Shown here in pieces: positions 1 through 9,882 of a stretch of DNA of 62,291 nucleotides. Below the pieces are notes generated by a model that searched no databases, had not been told where the DNA came from, and worked only from the letters and a program-made list of their open reading frames with translations. Origin of the DNA: Thioalkalivibrio sp. (GTDB lineage: Bacteria > Pseudomonadota > Gammaproteobacteria > Ectothiorhodospirales > Ectothiorhodospiraceae); contig SKJG01000025.1 in assembly GCA_007116035.1 (NCBI GenBank), positions 1 to 62,291 of the forward strand, written 5' to 3'. Position 1 is the first letter of the stretch. Each line of letters starts with the position of its first letter. Position numbers and translations under genes: made by a program.

Positions 1-2463
1 GCATGCCGCATCTACAAGACCATCCCGGCGCGCCGGCTCTGGGACGTGATCATGGCCTCCACCTATGACTACGCCGAACCAGGCTTCATCCTGATCGATG
101 AATACAACGAGATGAACAACAACTGGTGGTGCGAGTCGATCCGGGCCACGAACCCGTGTGTCACCGCCGATACCCGGTTGTACACCAAGCGCGGCATGAT
201 CCAAATCGGTGAGCTGTATGAGACTGGAGAACCATTGGATGTGACCGTCGATACGCGTACCCTGGCCGAGAATCGCCGTGGTACGGCTACGCGTCCTGCC
301 AAGCCTGCGTTCATGACATCTCAAAACGCGGATGTATATCGTGTGGTTACCCGTGAGGGTTACGAGATCAAGGCCACCGAGTGGCACGATTTCTATACTC
401 AGCGAGGCAAAATCAAGCTGAGTGCACTGCAGACCGGCGACGAACTTCTCGTCCAGTCCGGCAAGGGCCAATTCGGTGAACAGGGTAGCCAAGAACTTGG
501 TGTGCTCATAGGTCTTATCGCTGGGGACGGGCATTTTACCGAAACAAAAAAAAAGGAGCCGATCGCTTATGTCAATTTCTGGGGTGATGATCGACAGCTT
601 GCCGAAAACATTGCTAGCTACGTGAATGCCTTGATAACCGGTGCCTCACTGCATCAGGGCCGGGATTATCGTGTGCGGCCGGTTGCTGTCGAGGATCGCA
701 ACCACGTTTTTATCGGTTCGGTATTGTTGGCACGTTATCTTCAGTACTATGGTTTTACCAAGGAGCGCAAGCTCCAGGTGCCGGAAGTCGTTTGGCAGGG
801 CAGTGAAAAGTGCGTGGCTGGCTACTTGCGTGGTTTGTTCCAGGCTGATGGTACAGTCAATGTTTCCGGGAAGTCCATGACCTGCTCCATTCGCCTTGCG
901 TCTAGTCAGCAGAGTCTAATGAAAGACGTGCAAATGCTGCTGGCCAACTTTGGAATATTTTCCCGTATTCACAAACGTAGAGATGCGCAGAAACGATTGA
1001 TGCCGGATGGAAAAGGAGGGCAGAAGCTTTATCAGTGCGGTTCTGATTACGAATTAATCATTGACGGCGAATCCCGTGATCGCTTTATGGGCGAAATTGG
1101 CTTCCTGACAGACAGCAAGGCTGCCAAGTATGATGAATGGGTCAAGGGCAAGTGCCTGCGGAAAACTCAACGCTTTACCGCACGCATTGAAAAGGTCATT
1201 TACGAAGGTAAGCAGGCGGTTTATGACACTACTCAGCCTGACCACAACTCCGTTGTATTCAACGGTATCGTGACTGGGCAGTGCGGCGAGCAGGGTTTGC
1301 CCCCCTACGGTGCCTGCCTCCTGGGCTCGATCAACCTCACCAGGTTCGTCGTCGATCCCTTCACCGACAAGGCCCGTTTCGATTGGGATGCCTTTGGCGA
1401 GACCGTCTCGGTGTTCACGCGCATGCTGGACAACGTGGTGGAGGTGAACGGGCTGCCGCTGGCCGAGCAGCGTGAGGAGATCATGCGCAAGCGCCGCCAT
1501 GGCATGGGTTACCTCGGGCTTGGTTCGTCGTTGACCATGTTGGGGATGAAATATGGTGACGATGACTCGCTGGAATTCACCGAGCGCGTGACCCGGGAGA
1601 TGGCTCTGGCCGGCTGGCGCGCGGGGCTGGAACTGGCGCGGGAGAAAGGGCCTGCGCCGATCATGGACGAAGAGTTCACCGTGACCGAGAAGATGCTGCG
1701 CCAGCGTCCCGAGATGGCGCGCGACGGTTTCGGATCGGGAGACCGGGTCAAGGGGCGAGTGCTGCATGCGCGCTACAGCCGCTACATGCAGCGTATCGCC
1801 GAGGTGGAACCGGAACTGGTGGAACGGATCGCGGCCGAGGGCTGCCGCTTCACCCACCACAGTTCGATCGCGCCCACCGGCACCATCTCGCTGTCGCTGG
1901 CCAATAACGCGAGTAACGGGATCGAGCCGAGCTTCGCCCATCACTACGCCCGCAACGTGATCCGCAGCGGCAAGAAGTCCAAGGAGAAGGTGGACGTCTT
2001 CTCCTATGAGTTGCTGGCGTACCGGGAACGGGTGAACCCGCGGGCGATGCCCTATTCCGAGATCGTCGAGGAACAGCTGCCCGACTACTTCATCACCGCC
2101 GACGACATCACCCCGAAGGCGCATGTCGACGTACAGGCGGCGGCGCAGAAGTGGATCGATTCGTCGATCTCCAAGACCGCGAACGTGCCCACCGATTACC
2201 CCTTCGACGCCTTCAAGGATATCTATCTCTATGCCTGGCAGCAGGGCCTGAAGGGGTGTACCACCTTCCGGTTCAACCCGGAGGCCTTCCAGGGCGTGCT
2301 GGTCAAGGAGAAGGATCTGGCCAGCACCACCTACCGTTTCGCCCTGGAGGACGGCACCGTGATCGAGGCCAAGGGCAACGAGGAAGTCGAATACGACGGC
2401 GAGACCCACTCGGCCGCCAATCTCTACGATGCCCTGAAGGAAGGGTACTACGGCAAGTTCTGA
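1..2463 (+). CDS. nrdJ: Adenosylcobalamin-dependent (class II) ribonucleoside-diphosphate reductase, 5'-truncated by the window edge, interrupted by an intein
   Basis: This protein reduces ribonucleotides to deoxyribonucleotides using coenzyme B12 and works in aerobic or anaerobic cells. The reading frame is open from base 1 (A-C-R-I-Y-K-T-I-P...), so the true start lies upstream. Removing bases 157-1281 joins ATNP to [19 protein letters not shown], the RNR catalytic segment. Its N-x-C-x-E triad contains the cysteine that carries the thiyl radical in all RNR classes. Further RNR signatures follow: [12 protein letters not shown], the APTGTISL loop near codon 610, and [15 protein letters not shown] towards the C-terminus. 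The downstream gene is the class II partner nrdJb, which supports class II over class I. The intein is visibly richer in A/T than the extein. The RNR family assignment is firm; the class II call rests on the neighbour and sequence style. Confidence 0.9.
157..1281 (+). other. In-frame intein (375 aa) with LAGLIDADG homing endonuclease, inside nrdJ
   Basis: The insertion begins with Cys ([10 protein letters not shown], block A). It carries a TxxH block B (ATEWHDFY) and two dodecapeptide motifs, [11 protein letters not shown] at intein residue 117 and [11 protein letters not shown] at residue 224. Between these is a KERKLQVP block-D-like segment. It ends [21 protein letters not shown] just before extein Cys+1. 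Splicing would restore NPCGEQ, so the +1 nucleophile is the RNR radical cysteine itself. The C-terminus is Gly-Gln instead of the usual His-Asn. Rare functional inteins with C-terminal Gln are known, including in a viral RNR. Codon use and base composition are more A/T-rich than the flanking extein (for example the A-run near 545), which indicates transfer from a different background. Both endonuclease motifs keep the acidic Asp, so the element may still be mobile. Confidence 0.95.
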
Positions 2464-2478
2464 GCGCGGAGCGAGATC

Positions 2479-3192
2479 ATGACCATCCAGATTGAAAAGA
2501 AGATCATCGGTTTCGAGGTCGCCCGCGACGACAAGCCGGTGGCGGAAGCCGCTGCCGGTGGCGAGCGGGTCGTGGAGGATCCGGCCAGCAAGGTCATCCA
2601 CATGCACGAGAAGCTCGAGCGGCCCGAGATGCTCATGGGGTCCACCTACAAGATCAAGACGCCGCTGTCCGAGCATGCACTGTACGTGACCATCAACGAC
2701 GTGGTGCTGAATCCCGGTACCGAGCACGAGCTGCGCCGACCCTTCGAGATCTTCATCAACTCGAAGAACATGGATCACTTCCAGTGGATCGTGGCGCTGA
2801 CGCGGATCATCTCGGCGGTCTTCCGCAAGGGCGGCGACGTGACGTTCCTGGTCGAGGAGCTGCGTTCGGTGTTCGACCCGCGCGGCGGCTACTTCAAGAA
2901 AGGAGGCAAGTACATGCCCTCGCTGGTCGCCGAGATCGGCGACGCGATCGAGGGTCACATGCGCATGATCGGCCTGATCAAGGACGATGGGCTGGACGAG
3001 CACCAGCGCAGGCACATCGAGGAAAAACGGACCCAGTTCGAGGCCAGCCGCAACCTGGCCAGGACCGAGACCGACCCCGGTGACGCCTTTCCGCCGGGCG
3101 CACAGCTCTGCGGCAAGTGCAACACCAGGGCCGTGGTCGCCCTGGACAACTGCCTGACCTGCCTGAATTGCGGCGAGAGCAAGTGCGGATAG
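2479..3192 (+). CDS. nrdJb: NrdJb, second subunit/C-terminal portion of split class II ribonucleotide reductase
   Basis: This 237-residue protein lies 15 bp after nrdJ, with a GGAG Shine-Dalgarno ahead of ATG. Residues about 40-170 resemble the TSCPD-type domain of RNR accessory chains (MLMGSTYKIKTPLSEHALYVT... and FEIFINSKNMDHFQW). The last 30 residues form a zinc-ribbon-like cysteine cluster: CGKC near 208, CLTCLNC near 224, and a final C. In Pseudomonas the class II RNR is split into NrdJa and NrdJb and both are needed for activity. The same order here indicates a split enzyme, with the cysteine tail a likely candidate for metal binding or redox re-reduction. The exact biochemical role of NrdJb is inferred from that family. 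Confidence 0.85.
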   Translation: MTIQIEKKIIGFEVARDDKPVAEAAAGGERVVEDPASKVIHMHEKLERPEMLMGSTYKIKTPLSEHALYVTINDVVLNPGTEHELRRPFEIFINSKNMDHFQWIVALTRIISAVFRKGGDVTFLVEELRSVFDPRGGYFKKGGKYMPSLVAEIGDAIEGHMRMIGLIKDDGLDEHQRRHIEEKRTQFEASRNLARTETDPGDAFPPGAQLCGKCNTRAVVALDNCLTCLNCGESKCG

Positions 3193-3277: not shown

Positions 3278-3904
3278 ATGGACCAGACCCGACAGAGTCA
3301 AAGCGATCCCTCGGCAGCCATCGCGGACCTGGCCCGCATCGCCCTGTCCGGCGAGCGCAGGCTGCAGCGGCTGGAACGCCTCTTCCGCTGGACCATCGCG
3401 CTGTTCCTGCTGACCCTGGCCCTGGCACTGTATGCCCTGTCGCAGGGATTCGGCGCGGCCGGCGCGCAGGCCGAGGCCGGCTGGCCGCACGCGGCGCCGG
3501 ACCCGATCCCCGAGGAGCTGGAGACGGCAGATTTTGTCGCGCAGGGCCCGCAAGGGGATTTTCGTGCCCGGATCGAGGAACTCCGGGGGCGGGTGGCCGA
3601 AGCTGAGGCCGAGGCGCTGGATCCCGGGCATGCGCTGGCGGTGATCCTGCACGACATGAAGGACGTGTTGCATGAGACCCGGCAGATGCTGGCGGTGATG
3701 CCGCAGATGGCGGAAGACATGCGCGATATGCGGGGCGACATGGAGCGGATTGCAGGCACCATGGACTCGATGGACGACAAGATGACCGGGGTTCCGGTCA
3801 TGGCCGAGGAGATGCGCCGCCTCAACATCAATATTGACATCATGACCACCTCCATCGACTCCACCATGGGGCGCATGGGGCGGATGATGCCCTACATGTG
3901 GTGA
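3278..3904 (+). CDS. Methionine-rich single-pass membrane protein, function unknown
   Basis: The protein is 208 aa. The ATG at 3278 is chosen because GGAG lies 8 bp upstream; an earlier in-frame start at 3212 has no ribosome site. Residues about 36-57 form one transmembrane helix (WTIALFLLTLALALYALSQGF) after a short basic N-terminus, so the remaining 150 residues should be periplasmic. The C-terminal 85 residues contain 18 Met in spaced patterns (MPQMAEDMRDMRGDM, then MGRMGRMMPYMW) and are predicted helical, possibly coiled coil. I do not recognise a named family. Its stop codon overlaps the start of the TonB-dependent receptor by 7 bp, so the two are probably translated together. Met-rich periplasmic segments often bind Cu(I) or Ag(I), but here that is only a hypothesis. 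Confidence 0.75.
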   Translation: MDQTRQSQSDPSAAIADLARIALSGERRLQRLERLFRWTIALFLLTLALALYALSQGFGAAGAQAEAGWPHAAPDPIPEELETADFVAQGPQGDFRARIEELRGRVAEAEAEALDPGHALAVILHDMKDVLHETRQMLAVMPQMAEDMRDMRGDMERIAGTMDSMDDKMTGVPVMAEEMRRLNINIDIMTTSIDSTMGRMGRMMPYMW

Positions 3905-6030
3905 GGGGCCGGACACGCCGCCTTCTGCTGCCCGGCACGCGCTGCCGGGCGCCTCTCCCGCGCCGGAACGCTGCGGTCTGCCACTCTGCGCTCGCCGGCC
4001 TCCCGCTGTTCTCTGCCTTGGCCGCGGCGCCGGTTCTCGCACAGGAGGTGCTGGAGCCGATCACGGTCACGGTCACCGCGCCGCGCCTGGCCATGCCGCT
4101 CAGCGACCTTCCCGCCGCGGTCGACGTGGTGGATGCCGACGACGCAACCCAGGGACGGCAGGGTCTGCAGATGGACGAGGCCCTGAACCGGATCCCCGGG
4201 GTATTCGCGCAGAACCGCTACAACTTTGCCCAGGACGTGCGCCTTTCCATCCGCGGTTTCGGCGCCCGCGCCCCGTTCGGCATCCGCGGCCTGCGCATCC
4301 TGCAGGACGGCATCCCCGAGACCACGCCCGACGGCCAGTCCCAGGTGGACGCGATCGACCTGCTCAACGCACGTTCGATCGAGGTACTGCGCGGTCCGAA
4401 CGCGGCCCTGTACGGGAATGCCACCGGAGGCGTGGTGGCCATTTCGACCCGCGACGGCAGCGACCCGCGCGGCCACGGGGGCGGCGCGCTGCTCGGCAGC
4501 AACGGCTTCCAGCGCCTCGAGGCCACCAGCGAAGCCCGGGTCGATTCGGGCTCCTACTCGCTGACCTTTCACGATCTCCGTTTTGACGGCTACCGGGACC
4601 AGTCGCGCGCAGAAAAGCAGTTGCTGCGCCTCCACGCCGTGCAGGCGTTCGACTCGGGCGACCTGAACCTCCACCTGCGCTATCTGGACGCCCCGCTGAC
4701 CGAGGATCCCGGTGCCCTGACCCGGGCCGAGATGGACACCGACCGCCGTGCCGCGGCACCGCTGGCGTTGCGGCTGGACAGCCGACAGTCTGCGGAACAG
4801 CTGACGCTGGGTGCGCAGTGGCGGCAGCCCCTGGGGCAGGGCCAGCTCCGGCTCGGCGCCTTCAGAACCCACCGCGATTACGCGCAGCAGCTCCCGTTCT
4901 TCGGCAGCAGCCAGGTGGCCTATGAACGCGACTTCCATGGCGTGAATCTCGGTTACGAGCGGGACCTCGGCCCGACCCGGGCGCTGTTCGGACTGGATCT
5001 GGAACAGCAGCGCGACGACCGGACCCGAAACTGCATCAACGCGGCCTTGGAGGCGTCGTGTAACCCGCCGAGTGAGCCGGTGGCAGGGCCCCTGGCCCTG
5101 GATCAGCGAGAACGAGCGCGCACCCGAGGTATCTTCGTGCAGACCGACACGCTGCTCGGGGACGACTGGAACCTCGCCCTCGGCCTGCGCCATGACCGGA
5201 TCCGTTTCGATATCGACGACCGCCTCCGGGCCGGGGGCGAGGACCTGTCCGGCCGGCGTGTTTTCGACGAGACGAGTGCGAGCGGCGGCCTGATCTGGCA
5301 TTGGCGGCCCGGTCAGCAAGCGTTCGTCAATGCGGCCACGGCATTCGAGACCCCCACCTTCACCGAGTTTGCCAATCCCGCCGGCACGGGTGGTTTCAAC
5401 CCCGACCTGGAGTCGCAGCGCGCCCGTAGCATGGAATTGGGCGTGCGCGGTGAGGCGGGGATCGTGAGCTATGACGTGACCGCCTACGCAGCCCGGGTAC
5501 GCGACGAACTGGTGCCGTTCCAGCTGGAGGAGGATGGGCGAAACTTCTACCGCAACGCGGGCCGCACCGCGCGCGAGGGGTTGGAGATCGGGCTGGACCT
5601 GCGGCCGAATCCGCAATGGAACCTGCGTGCGGCGGTCAGCCTGAATGATTTCCGCTACCGTGAGTTCGTCGTGGGCGACGAGCGCCTGGACGGCAATCGT
5701 CTGCCCGGCCTGCCCCGGGAGCAGCTGTTTCTCGAGGCGGCCTGGCGTGACGGCCGGCAGTTCGCGGTTGCCGACCTGCTTTTTTCGGGCGACCGTTTCG
5801 CCGATGATTCGAATACCGTTCGGGTGGGTTCGCAGACCCTGTTGAATGCCCGTATCGGCAGGCACTGGGACCAGGGCCGGCTGCGTGCGGAGGGTTTCCT
5901 CGCGGTGAACAACCTGCTCGATACCGACGCCATCGACAACCTGCGCATCAACGCCAACTTCGGGCGCTATTTCGAGCCCGCGCCGGGGCGCAACTTCCTC
6001 GTGGGCCTGCGCATCTACCACCGGCCGTGA
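3898..6030 (+). CDS. TonB-dependent outer-membrane receptor
   Basis: This 710-aa protein is a gated beta-barrel for TonB-energised uptake of a scarce ligand. The N-terminus has an Arg-rich stretch then a signal-like segment ending APVLAQ, followed by a TonB-box-like EPITVTVTAPR. The plug domain runs to about residue 190, with typical LNRIPGVFAQNR, LSIRGFGARAPFGIRGLRILQDG and VLRGPNAALYGNATGGVV. The rest is a 22-strand-type barrel; FLAVNNLLDTD is the usual NLF/D motif near the end and the last residues are aromatic/basic (GLRIYHRP). The GTG start overlaps the preceding Met-rich gene. The ligand cannot be read from sequence: the plug resembles FecA/siderophore-type receptors, and the nearby Zur-like gene offers zinc as an alternative. 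No Fur or Zur box was recognised upstream. Confidence 0.9.
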   Translation: MVRGRTRRLLLPGTRCRAPLPRRNAAVCHSALAGLPLFSALAAAPVLAQEVLEPITVTVTAPRLAMPLSDLPAAVDVVDADDATQGRQGLQMDEALNRIPGVFAQNRYNFAQDVRLSIRGFGARAPFGIRGLRILQDGIPETTPDGQSQVDAIDLLNARSIEVLRGPNAALYGNATGGVVAISTRDGSDPRGHGGGALLGSNGFQRLEATSEARVDSGSYSLTFHDLRFDGYRDQSRAEKQLLRLHAVQAFDSGDLNLHLRYLDAPLTEDPGALTRAEMDTDRRAAAPLALRLDSRQSAEQLTLGAQWRQPLGQGQLRLGAFRTHRDYAQQLPFFGSSQVAYERDFHGVNLGYERDLGPTRALFGLDLEQQRDDRTRNCINAALEASCNPPSEPVAGPLALDQRERARTRGIFVQTDTLLGDDWNLALGLRHDRIRFDIDDRLRAGGEDLSGRRVFDETSASGGLIWHWRPGQQAFVNAATAFETPTFTEFANPAGTGGFNPDLESQRARSMELGVRGEAGIVSYDVTAYAARVRDELVPFQLEEDGRNFYRNAGRTAREGLEIGLDLRPNPQWNLRAAVSLNDFRYREFVVGDERLDGNRLPGLPREQLFLEAAWRDGRQFAVADLLFSGDRFADDSNTVRVGSQTLLNARIGRHWDQGRLRAEGFLAVNNLLDTDAIDNLRINANFGRYFEPAPGRNFLVGLRIYHRP

Positions 6031-6085: not shown

Positions 6086-6655
6086 CTACGACCCGCCCGG
6101 AAGCACCCCCGCCCGGTCCAGCGCCTCGCGCCAGAGGAGCAGCTTCGCCTCCAGGCCCAGGTGCGCGTTGGCCGGACTCGTCGATGGCAGCCGCACCGCC
6201 GGCAAGCCCAGGGTCTCGACCTCCCGCATCCGGCGGGCGCTCTCGGCGCCGTTGTGGATCACCAGGCGCAGGGCTGGTAAGCGGGTCGGCAGACCGGCGA
6301 GGTCGTTGGGAACGGCATGCCGGATGGCCGAGTCCAGGCTGCCGGGGCGCACGCAACTCGCGTAGACGTCCCAGAGCCCGATGCCGTGGTCGAGCAGGCA
6401 CCGGGTCCGTTCCCCGTAGGCCTTTTCAGGCAGCGGTTGTCCCAGCAGCCTGCCCATGATCGGCCAGAACTGGTTGCGCGGGTGTGCGTAGTACTGCTGG
6501 GCCCGCAGCGACGCAGCTCCGGGAAAGCTGCCCAGGACCAGCACCCGGGTATCGGGGCGCAGGATGGGCGGCAGGGCTGTGAGATGGGTCTTCGTGGTTT
6601 GCTCCGGAATAGGTCGACGCAGTGGTCCGAGCCCGCAACGCCGCTGGGAATTCAA
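6086..6655 (-). CDS. Uracil/hypoxanthine-DNA glycosylase, UDG superfamily family 6 type
   Basis: The protein removes deaminated bases from DNA; family 6 enzymes act mainly on deoxyinosine. The diagnostic motif VLGSFPGAASLRAQQYYAHP is followed by RNQFWP; in this family the Asn after the Pro-Arg is the catalytic residue. The second motif, near the C-terminus, is LPSTSPAN. It is 189 aa, close to the family size. The best start is TTG at 6655, which overlaps the stop of the zur-like gene by 4 bp, so the pair is likely one transcript. About 30 residues precede the conserved core, and a slightly later start is possible. It converges on the TonB receptor gene with 55 bp between stops. Confidence 0.85.
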   Translation of the reverse strand: MNSQRRCGLGPLRRPIPEQTTKTHLTALPPILRPDTRVLVLGSFPGAASLRAQQYYAHPRNQFWPIMGRLLGQPLPEKAYGERTRCLLDHGIGLWDVYASCVRPGSLDSAIRHAVPNDLAGLPTRLPALRLVIHNGAESARRMREVETLGLPAVRLPSTSPANAHLGLEAKLLLWREALDRAGVLPGGS

Positions 6656-7122
6656 GCCTGGGGCGGCGGTTCCCTGTCGGTGCTCTGGCAGCCGCGGCAG
6701 AGCCCGTGCAGTTCCACCACCTTGGTGCTGATCGCGAAGCCCTCCTGCCCGGCTGCCTGATCCAGTGCCGCACTGATGTTCTGGGGATGCATCTCGTGGA
6801 TATGGCCGCAGGTGTCGCAGATCATCAGCAGGGTCTCGTGGGCCTCACCGGGATGATTGCAGGCGACAAAGCCGTTCAGGCTTTCGATGCGGTGGATGAA
6901 CCCCTGTTCGAGCAGGAATGCCAGGCTGCGGTAGATCGTGGGCGGCTTGATGCTGTGATCGGCTGAACTGAGTTCGTGAATGAGGTCATAGGCCTTGATG
7001 ACGCCATCGGTCTTCAGAACCTGTTCCAGGATGCGTCGGCGCAGGGAGGTCAGGCGCACGCCGCGTCTGGCGCAGACACGCTCCGCGGTGTCGAGCGCCT
7101 CCGTCGTCTGTGTCGTCACCAC
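6652..7122 (-). CDS. zur: Fur-family transcriptional regulator, Zur-like
   Basis: Fur-family repressors bind DNA when loaded with metal; Zur senses zinc. The 156-aa protein has the winged helix (RVCARRGVRLTSLRRRILE and IKPPTIYRSLAFLLEQGFIHRIES) and the dimer/metal domain with CDTC near residue 103 and CRGC near the C-terminus, the two structural zinc pairs. A conserved FVACNHPGEAH segment lies before them. I place the start at GTG 7122 because a perfect AGGAGG lies 5 bp upstream. An upstream GTG at 7230 adds 36 residues with no ribosome site. Calling it Zur and not Fur rests on CNHPGEAHE and the absence of the Fur-type HHDH stretch. No znuABC gene is in the window. Confidence 0.82.
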   Translation of the reverse strand: MVTTQTTEALDTAERVCARRGVRLTSLRRRILEQVLKTDGVIKAYDLIHELSSADHSIKPPTIYRSLAFLLEQGFIHRIESLNGFVACNHPGEAHETLLMICDTCGHIHEMHPQNISAALDQAAGQEGFAISTKVVELHGLCRGCQSTDREPPPQA

Positions 7123-7412
7123 GATCGCCTCCTGGATGAAATGCGGCCGCTCAAGCATACCCGAAGCCGCCGCCTGTTCGTGAAGGGTAAAGGCGCCACA
7201 GGAACCGGCCCGTTCCATGACGTGGATCACATCCGTTTGCCATCCCGCTTTGTAAAGTCACGGTCTTTGTGGCGAGATGGAAGTTGGACCCGGTGCCTCC
7301 GGAACTCCTGCTCGGGACGTGGCGACGGGAAGCGGTTGCGGCGAGGTTTCGATTCTGTCAGGCTTTCGCCGCGAGTATTTGGCCATCCGTTTGACCTTGC
7401 TGGAGTATAACG

Positions 7413-7526: not shown

Positions 7527-7785
7527 CGGGTTCACCGTCCCGGTCTCCTGACCTGAAGTTCGGTTTCAGCCGCGAGGCACGCGCCGATGCTGGACGCCGG
7601 CGCTGCCTTGCTCGTATTCCGCCCACCCTCGTTTGGTTCCTCGCCAGTGACTGAGGCGTTCGGGCGGCCCTCTCTTGGGCGCCGCGCGGCCCCCACCCCG
7701 CCCGCCGCTGCGCCTGTCGCAGGAGAAGTCCGCCGCCATCGGCTATAAAGGGGGACTGTTCCCCGTTTGCAGTCATGAGTGGTTC

Positions 7786-9882
7786 ATGTACGCGCGACTC
7801 TTCCTGCTGTTTGCCCTGCTGTTCCTGGCTCCCCCTGGTTGTGCCGACCAGGGGGAGGGGCCGTTCCACGGTGGCGAGATCGAGACCGGGGATCTCGACG
7901 CCCTGCTCGAGCGCGGCAGTTTGCGGGTCGTCGTACCCGGTACCGCCATCGGTGAGCCGTCCCTGCCGCGGCAGGGTTCACCCGTGGCACAGCAGCGGGA
8001 ACTGGCCGAGGCCTTTGCCGCCTCGCTCGGTCTTCACCTGGAGCTCGTACCCGTGTTCCGCCTGCGCGAGATGCTGCCCTTGCTCGAGCAGGGCAGGGCG
8101 GACATCATTGCCGCCAACCTCACGGTGACCGAGGGCCGCCGGGAACGGGTCGATTTCTCACTGCCCATCGATCATGTCCATGAGGTCGTGCTCGTCGCAG
8201 AGACGAACGAGGACATTCATTCGATCGAGGACCTGGCCGGCCGCAGTGTCATGGTCGACAGGGCGACGTCGTTCTGGGAGACACTGGCCGCCCTGCGCGA
8301 GGACTTTCCGGAAATCCATCTCCTCCCCAGTCTCGATCATTTTGACGACGAGTCGACGCTGGACATGCTCGTCGCGGGCGAGATCGACGCGACGGTTCGC
8401 GACAGCAACATCGCCGAGATGTACCTGGGCTACCGCGATGACCTGCGCATCGCCTTTCCACTGGGGGAGCGGCAGTCCATCGCCTGGGCCGTGCGCCCGG
8501 AGGCGCCGCAACTGCTCGCCGCCCTGAACCGGTTTTTGACCACGGAACAGCTGACCCGACCCCGGGAGGCCCGCTATGTGGGGGATCTCCCCGAACTCCA
8601 GGAGCGGCGCAGACTGCGCATCCTGTTGCCCAACTCCGCAGCTTCGTACTATCTCTGGCGTGGCGAACTGGTGGGTTTCGAATACGAGTTCGCGCGGCGC
8701 TTCGCCGAAGAGCATCGCATGCGCCTGGAGGTGGTGGTGCCGCCACATCCCGCCGTGGTGTACGACTGGCTGGACGAGGGGCGGGCGGATATTGCCGGGG
8801 GCTTCCTGGAACCCGGTACGGCGGACGGGCGGGGCCCGGTCCGGTTCACGAATCCCTGGCACCACGCGCAGCCTTATCTGGTCAGTCGTGCCGATGCGGG
8901 TGAACTCGCGGGCTGGGATGCGGTGACCGGAAGCACCGTCGCTGCGGTCCGCGACAGTGTCCTTTGGTCCGAGCTCGAGACGGTGGCGGATGAGCACGGG
9001 TTTGAGCTGCTGCCCTTGCCCGGTATCGCCGGCGATCTCGAGGATGTCGTCAACAGCCTGGTCGCGCGCGAGTTCGATTACGCGGTCGTCGAGGGGCACC
9101 TGCTCGGGGTGGAACTGGCGTGGCGCGATGACATTCGCCGGCAGTTCGAGGCAGGCTCCCCGATTCCGCACACTTGGGCCGTGCGTGCGTCCGATGAAGC
9201 CCTGCTGGAGTCCCTGAACGAGTTTTTCCGCAAGGAGCACCGCAGTACTTTTTACAACATCCTGTACCGACGGTATTTCGAGGATGAGCGCCGCATCCGC
9301 CGCCACATGGACGAGCGGATACGGGGGGCTGGGCAGCTTTCCCCCTGGGACGATCTGGTGCGCAGGTACGCAGAGCCGCAGGATTTCGACTGGCGACTGA
9401 TCGTCGCGCAAATGTACCAGGAGAGCCGCTTCGATCCGGAGGCGCGCTCTTCGATGGGGGCGGCCGGTCTGATGCAGTTGATGCCGCGTACCGCCCAACA
9501 GGTGGGTGTGAAGGATCTCGAGGATCCTGCCGATAACATCCGGGGGGGTGTCCTGTATCTGGATTGGGTTCGCCAGCGTTTGCCCGAAGACCTGCCGGTG
9601 GCCGACCGGGTCTGGTTCACGCTTGCCGCCTACAATGCAGGCGTCGGGCATGTGATGGACGCAAGGCGTCTTGCGGCGCAGAAGGGCTGGGACCCGGACC
9701 GTTGGTTCGACAACGTCGAGAATGCCATGCTGCTGCTGTCGCAACGGCAATATTTCTCCCAGGCCCGTCACGGTTACGTGCGGGGCAGCGAGCCGGTCGC
9801 CTATATCAACAACATCAGCGCGCGCTACAAGGCGTACGTGCAACTGACCGAGGATCAGGCCTTCCTCAGCGGTGGCGACTGA
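7786..9882 (+). CDS. MltF-like membrane-bound lytic transglycosylase with two tandem solute-binding domains
   Basis: The enzyme cleaves peptidoglycan glycan strands non-hydrolytically in the periplasm. The N-terminus (MYARLFLLFALLFLAPPGC) is a signal peptide ending at a possible but imperfect lipobox Cys. Residues about 38-260 and about 270-490 are two SBP_bac_3 domains: the first has VTEGRRERVDFSLP, the second GELVGFEYEFARRFAEEHRM and TADGRGPVRFTNPW. Residues about 525-690 are the SLT domain. Its catalytic Glu is E546 in MYQESRF, followed by the SMGAAGLMQLMP and YNAGVGHV signatures. Classical MltF has one sensor domain and about 500 residues, so this 698-aa form has an extra one. The start at 7786 gives a proper signal peptide; longer in-frame extension upstream looks non-coding. 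Confidence 0.88.
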   Translation: MYARLFLLFALLFLAPPGCADQGEGPFHGGEIETGDLDALLERGSLRVVVPGTAIGEPSLPRQGSPVAQQRELAEAFAASLGLHLELVPVFRLREMLPLLEQGRADIIAANLTVTEGRRERVDFSLPIDHVHEVVLVAETNEDIHSIEDLAGRSVMVDRATSFWETLAALREDFPEIHLLPSLDHFDDESTLDMLVAGEIDATVRDSNIAEMYLGYRDDLRIAFPLGERQSIAWAVRPEAPQLLAALNRFLTTEQLTRPREARYVGDLPELQERRRLRILLPNSAASYYLWRGELVGFEYEFARRFAEEHRMRLEVVVPPHPAVVYDWLDEGRADIAGGFLEPGTADGRGPVRFTNPWHHAQPYLVSRADAGELAGWDAVTGSTVAAVRDSVLWSELETVADEHGFELLPLPGIAGDLEDVVNSLVAREFDYAVVEGHLLGVELAWRDDIRRQFEAGSPIPHTWAVRASDEALLESLNEFFRKEHRSTFYNILYRRYFEDERRIRRHMDERIRGAGQLSPWDDLVRRYAEPQDFDWRLIVAQMYQESRFDPEARSSMGAAGLMQLMPRTAQQVGVKDLEDPADNIRGGVLYLDWVRQRLPEDLPVADRVWFTLAAYNAGVGHVMDARRLAAQKGWDPDRWFDNVENAMLLLSQRQYFSQARHGYVRGSEPVAYINNISARYKAYVQLTEDQAFLSGGD

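Follow-up and report, generated by a model that had tools for sequence, protein, structure and literature searches.

The window analyzed here, a stretch of 62,291 nucleotides from Thioalkalivibrio sp., encodes, at positions 157-1281, a 375-residue LAGLIDADG intein that splits the NP/CGE sequence (the slash marks the insertion point) of the alpha subunit of a class II ribonucleotide reductase (RNR). Very probably, this is a splicing-competent, homing class 1 intein, one allele of a family that is found at the radical-cysteine junction of RNR large subunits. Its Gly-Gln (GQ) C-terminus, judging by the sequence comparisons reported below, is a stable family trait and the usual ending of a widespread intein family at this junction. 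The features of the locus, all on the + strand, are as follows.

1-156, +: end of the N-extein of the class II RNR alpha subunit, ending ESIRATNP, which is joined straight to CGE in intein-free relatives
157-1281, +: intein, 375 residues, Cys1 to Gln375 (Pfam and NCBIfam matches, junction comparison, precursor model)
157-180, +: block A (CVTADTRL), with Cys1 at 157-159, present in 91/91 clade members
358-393, +: block B, with Thr74 at 376-378, His77 at 385-387 and Trp76 preceding the His (clade alignment)
481-1161 (borders approximate), +: LAGLIDADG homing endonuclease region, with Asp124 (526-528) and Asp231 (847-849) intact (Pfam, clade alignment)
1219-1260, +: block F, with Asp357 (F:4), invariant in the clade
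1261-1281, +: block G (NGIVTGQ), with Gly at G:6 and Gln375 (1279-1281) at G:7 (translation, clade alignment)
1282-2463, +: C-extein of the class II RNR, with Cys+1 at 1282-1284, within NP/CGEQ, as the N-x-C-x-E cysteine (alignment to 1XJE)
2479-3192, +: open reading frame (ORF) with a TSCPD domain, NrdJb-like (Pfam, NCBIfam)

Block names follow PMC4031507, whereas the placement of the blocks, the borders of the endonuclease region and the assignment of the block F histidine to residue 363 were set in this analysis.

A single open frame, 1-2463, spans the N-extein, the intein and the C-extein. In Pfam searches, this ORF matched Ribonuc_red_lgC (E 3.3e-79), LAGLIDADG_3 (4.9e-28, in two stretches) and Intein_splicing (5.8e-8), the latter with 33.1 bits for the whole ORF, below the 35.8 cut-off, and 36.1 bits, just above it, for the intein alone. 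The NCBIfam matches include intein_Nterm (1.6e-12) and, as the best model, NrdJ_Z (2.7e-106), with 356.5 bits against a cut-off of 399.95 for an ORF that is both truncated and interrupted. The best PDB match of the C-extein is 1XJE, the B12-dependent NrdJ of T. maritima, and the first residue of the extein aligns to residue 322 of this protein, which we take to be the thiyl-radical cysteine. The Asn, Cys and Glu of N-x-C-x-E occupy precursor positions 7, 384 and 386 and are invariant in a 65-row alignment. Among the fetched relatives, 17 have no intein match, and in every one of these, the flanks are joined directly. Thus, the preliminary description was correct in placing an intein with a Gly-Gln C-terminus at ATNP/CGEQ of a class II RNR and in equating its +1 residue with the catalytic cysteine, and the comparison with intein-free NrdJ orthologues, which it proposed, locates the insertion at N-x-C-x-E.

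By similarity and by the N-x-C-x-E cysteine, the enzyme is a class II RNR (NrdJ), with a predicted dependence on adenosylcobalamin. The next ORF matches the C-terminal part of the class II RNR model, so that the enzyme resembles the split NrdJa/NrdJb type. Further downstream, the window encodes a TonB-dependent receptor (3898-6030) and a protein combining solute-binding and SLT transglycosylase parts (7675-9882) and, on the - strand, a member of the uracil-DNA glycosylase superfamily (6086-6655) and a Fur family regulator (6652-7230).

The Gly-Gln ending had been regarded as rare and as possibly making splicing slow or conditional, a view that was not supported when other inteins at this junction were compared. 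The first two genome searches yielded 38 inteins at the junction, of which 25 end with His-Asn (HN) and 13 with Gln (12 GQ and one AQ). The second search matched 51 genomes, 21 of these without a fetched locus, and gave 30 loci, among which L032 is the window itself, and L040 and L055 repeat L003 and L012. Two loci, L042, which ends with GQ and contains an assembly gap of Ns, and L045 were left out of the 38. The latter, in a class I RNR gene, carries a related intein that is inserted one residue further on (NLC/T), at a neighboring but different junction, and ends with Lys-Asn.

An alignment of the 13 Gln-ending inteins, compared with one genome per species (84,980 species), detected 180 relatives, of which 80 were kept. 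All 80 are located at NP/C (CGE in 78 cases and CAE in two), and 75 of these end with GQ, four with Gly-Asn (GN) and one with AQ. Among viral contigs, the alignment query found 26 relatives, all at N[PL]/C, whereas a single-intein query found none. Because [VI]QSGKGQF and V[FY]DTTQxD(xN) served as seeds in the genome-contig and viral scans, conservation at these columns is inflated; the final intein residues lie outside the seeds. Nine more inteins at the homologous junction come from named phage and plasmid records:

SPbeta BnrdE: VTGN/CSE
Miltoncostaea: VTGN/CSE
Brochothrix A9: ATGN/CSE
ICP1: LTGQ/CQE
Rheinheimera Barba21A: LTGQ/CSE
Pectobacterium CB7: LTGQ/CME
Corynebacterium Darwin: RTGN/CSE
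Acinetobacter Bestia: NTMN/CQE
uncultured phage: ITSN/CTE

For ICP1 (L172), the record annotates the intein at 607-1590, two residues later than the junction-aligned reading at 601-1584, and for L175, the end of the intein was placed two codons beyond the end of the match.

Overall, once 12 duplicates are discounted, the homologous junction is represented by 141 distinct inteins, the one in the window included, of which 89 end with GQ, 25 with HN, 24 with GN, and one each with AQ, MN and SN; SPbeta-like prophage inteins, including several near copies, make up 17 of the 24 GN rows. When the last two residues are left out of the tree, the HN inteins form one separate clade (SH-aLRT 100), and the intein of the window belongs to a clade of 91 (SH-aLRT 88) that consists of 86 GQ, four GN and one AQ inteins. 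Within this clade, it falls into a well supported set of five together with L062, L033, L063 and L037, and the GN rows are found in two places. The tree is a quick build with long phage branches, and the placements of the phage inteins were not relied upon. Given that the Gln codons (CAA, CAG) and the Asn codons (AAC, AAT) in this set are two base changes apart, a swap between Gln and Asn is not a single mutation.

The conserved residues of this clade point to active splicing. Cys1, Thr74 and His77 of block B, and Asp357 of block F are invariant in all 91 members, and of these, 86 retain the endonuclease residue Asp124 and 87 retain Asp231. Among the hallmarks of class 1 inteins are a first residue that is Cys or Ser, a +1 residue that is Cys, Ser or Thr, and the Thr and His of block B, all of which are present here as Cys1, Cys+1, Thr74 and His77. 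The usual His-Asn of block G, a common but not strictly defining feature, is replaced by Gly-Gln; however, about 5% of functional inteins are reported to have another residue at G:6, and G:7 can be Gln or Asp instead of Asn (PMC4031507), so that this ending does not exclude class 1 membership. The GQ ending persists in L162 (276 aa) and L163 (290 aa), two members whose endonuclease is reduced.

In Nei-Gojobori comparisons of the exteins with those of intein-bearing relatives, dN/dS was 0.09-0.23 in nine of the ten pairs, the tenth being saturated; such purifying selection on the exteins of intein-bearing genes also argues against Gly-Gln as a mark of slow or conditional splicing. For the endonuclease region, the values were 0.04 (L062), 0.07 (L033) and 0.18 (L004, a degraded intein that lost the second motif Asp), and the remaining seven of the ten pairs were saturated and not used. 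An AlphaFold model of the precursor with eight flanking residues per side (mean pLDDT 91.9) adopts the HINT fold, with Z scores of 27.9 to 7qsu, 27.0 to 1dq3 and 20.9 to 1mi8, and the closest structures, 7qsu and 1dq3, are full-length endonuclease-bearing inteins. In sequence searches of the PDB, the single intein gave one weak match, whereas a profile retrieved 19 entries, for the most part small inteins or splicing domains of such inteins. Taken together, the invariant catalytic residues, the GQ ending kept in the reduced members, purifying selection and the intein-like model lead us to expect that splicing is the normal state of this intein.

Among previously known inteins, the one in BnrdE of the SPbeta prophage (NC_001884, L168) shares with the window the junction before the N-x-C cysteine (SNL/CSE), the penultimate Gly and the T-x-W-H signature of block B, and matches residues 1-375 in tblastn (34.8% identity, E 6e-68), but resides in an NrdE-type RNR of a Bacillus prophage and ends with GN. 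By its junction and this full-length relationship, the intein of the window is assigned to the RIR1 radical-cysteine allele group (SPbeta/CIV type). The RIR1 intein of Chilo iridescent virus (CIV) is placed in an InBase allele group, RIR1-l or RIR1-i, that is shared with bacterial and B. subtilis prophage inteins (PMC1635734); compared by its published description, it resembles the window in the Gln ending and, by that grouping, in the allele group, but comes from an insect virus RNR. With Gln, this CIV intein reportedly splices better than it does with Asn (PMC4031507), which further weakens the case for Gly-Gln as a mark of slow splicing. The PolII inteins of Pab and Pho also share the C-terminal Gln, Cys1 and Cys+1 with the window but are small, belong to DNA polymerase II and keep both the penultimate His and the block F His; they are described as slow with Gln, and the Pab intein as improved by Asn (PMC4031507). 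The CIV intein is the more relevant precedent because its allele group includes the SPbeta-type prophage inteins, of which the SPbeta one sits at the junction found in the window. The HN inteins of this nrdJ junction, such as L005, L012 and L046, share with the window the insertion point, a similar length (373-378 aa) and the LAGLIDADG type but are only ~27-34% identical to it, form a separate clade, end with His-Asn, and carry Asp or Asn before the block B His.

The likely course of splicing can be outlined from the class 1 scheme, which consists of an acyl shift at Cys1, transfer to Cys+1, cyclization of the terminal residue and an S-N shift (PMC4031507). Cys1 would attack the preceding peptide bond, and Cys+1 (the radical cysteine) would then accept the N-extein. 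Cyclization of the terminal residue to aminoglutarimide, the product described for Gln at this position (PMC8175363), would free the intein, and the S-N shift would restore the native NP-CGE. An unspliced RNR would be inactive, with its radical cysteine blocked and the loop around that residue interrupted.

Two histidines are credited with the third step, of which the one at G:6 is absent, and the one in block F (residue 363) is present in only 57 of the 91 clade members, that is, in 57/87 Gln rows and 0/4 Asn rows, the latter being few and including three sisters. In all 116 inteins without His at G:6, the residue before the block B His is aromatic (Trp in 110 and Tyr in six), whereas in all 25 HN inteins, it is Asp (20) or Asn (five). 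This contrast is suggestive only because it amounts to essentially one split in the tree. Block F shows an invariant TTQ (358-360), followed by Asp362 and Asn364, each found in 90/91 members, although these columns belong to a search seed. Tentatively, one could imagine a large junction family that cyclizes Gln without the textbook helpers, with the aromatic residue before the block B His and the TTQ/DxN residues forming a replacement network.

Alternatively, Gly-Gln might slow the last step, such that splicing, and with it the supply of active class II RNR, would depend on the redox state or on metal. A disulfide between Cys1 and Cys+1 is possible, as described for the slow Gln-ending Pab PolII intein (PMC8175363, PMC4031507), and conditional splicing of inteins in active sites is a published hypothesis (PMC8229266). 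Nevertheless, no sign of such regulation emerged, and it appears unlikely here. The conservation of GQ in 86 of the 91 clade members over many hosts better fits a competent ending than a tuned brake, and so does the reported preference of the CIV intein for Gln. Furthermore, the presence of inteins is patchy, with 9 of the 29 congeners carrying one at this site and 11 having an uninterrupted site. The same genome also encodes, on contig C59, the class I alpha subunit NrdA (PRK07207, 1622 bits against a cut-off of 965), followed, at the contig end, by the start of the small subunit NrdB, so that the class II RNR need not be the sole source of dNTPs; NrdD had no match in this genome.

Still less plausible is a degenerate, non-splicing intein that would leave the enzyme inactive: both block G residues depart from the usual His-Asn, but this ending is conserved family-wide, the catalytic residues are intact, and both the exteins and the intein are under purifying selection. 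The least likely alternative, an assembly chimera or contaminant, could draw on the start of the contig (G000:C184) inside nrdJ, with the intein only 156 bases from this start and the N-terminal half of the gene not found elsewhere in the same assembly, and on the composition of the intein, which is unlike that of the flanks, but the frame is open over both junctions, these match the junctions of many relatives, and the exteins are 97-98% identical at the protein level to those of the congener G018.

For the intein as a genuine, mobile element of this genome, the comparison with congeners is informative. In G018, the site is empty, and the flanks are 94-96% identical to those of the window in DNA. 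Across the 29 congeners, by our reading of the matches, the nine inteins at the site comprise eight of the HN type and one of the GQ type, and besides the 11 uninterrupted sites, there are six genomes with weak class I-type matches only and three with none. The single GQ congener, G012 (L004), has an intein that is just 58% identical to that of the window, although the C-exteins of the two genes share 85% identity. The empty site in G018, the patchy distribution, the mismatch in G012 and the retained endonuclease residues point to homing after the split from G018, and gain of the intein by the window lineage at that stage is the most likely course of events, although precise loss of the intein in G018 would give the same pattern.

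The earlier proposal of a recent arrival and possible mobility is supported by these observations and by the low dN/dS of the endonuclease region (0.04 and 0.07) in comparison with the two nearest relatives, mobility being probable; the two LAGLIDADG motifs indeed retain their acidic residues. The argument from composition stands in part, in that the intein differs from its flanks (GC 0.52 vs 0.64) but is not A/T-rich. From these sequence features, we expect a LAGLIDADG homing endonuclease that would cut the empty nrdJ allele at the conserved site, after which the intein would be copied in.

In the 50 bases immediately 3' of the insertion site, there are eight differences from G018, as against 32 in 594 bases farther downstream (Fisher p 0.008); this p value is modest, two cut-offs having been tried, with p 0.02 at 100 bases. 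All eight differences in the first 50 downstream bases are silent, which is as expected if donor sequence was copied along with the intein (co-conversion). No clear donor emerged among eight relatives, the best of these, L062, sharing the base of the window at 7 of the 12 differing sites. Even the closest intein is at a dS of 1.70, a high value which suggests that the immediate donor has not been sampled.

Some of the related nrdJ genes contain other inserts. In L062:1203-5807, from a MAG titled Thiohalomonas denitrificans, a second nrdJ intein is located at G/CGIGYEFS and ends with HN; in G018, the upstream site of this type is uninterrupted. Several other relatives have open frames of ~1,530-1,570 aa, which may hold two inteins. 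The congener locus L185 (G029:C2:2600-5000) contains a second, broken nrdJ copy with ~285 bases and stops at the NP/ junction that is not readable as an intein.

Inteins in nrdJ are already in print, with two reported from ocean metagenome data (PMC3653736), and the curated RNR inteins of RNRdb are said to number about 80 (PMC2795772). Precedents also exist within the RIR1 allele group for the junction, for a penultimate Gly (in SPbeta) and for a terminal Gln (in CIV). Among the matches listed in our search of open-licence papers, which covered titles and the starts of abstracts, there was no description of GQ-ending class II RNR inteins, of their spread through bacterial class II RNRs or of the near-uniform GQ ending of the clade.

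Thus, one seemingly odd intein becomes a family that shares an unusual ending, and two distantly related alleles, of the GQ and the HN type, occupy one catalytic site. The window adds an apparently recent case of homing with a close empty-site relative. The natural Gln and Asn variants within a single clade (86 GQ, four GN and one AQ) make up a comparative set for the study of Gln cyclization without the usual histidines.
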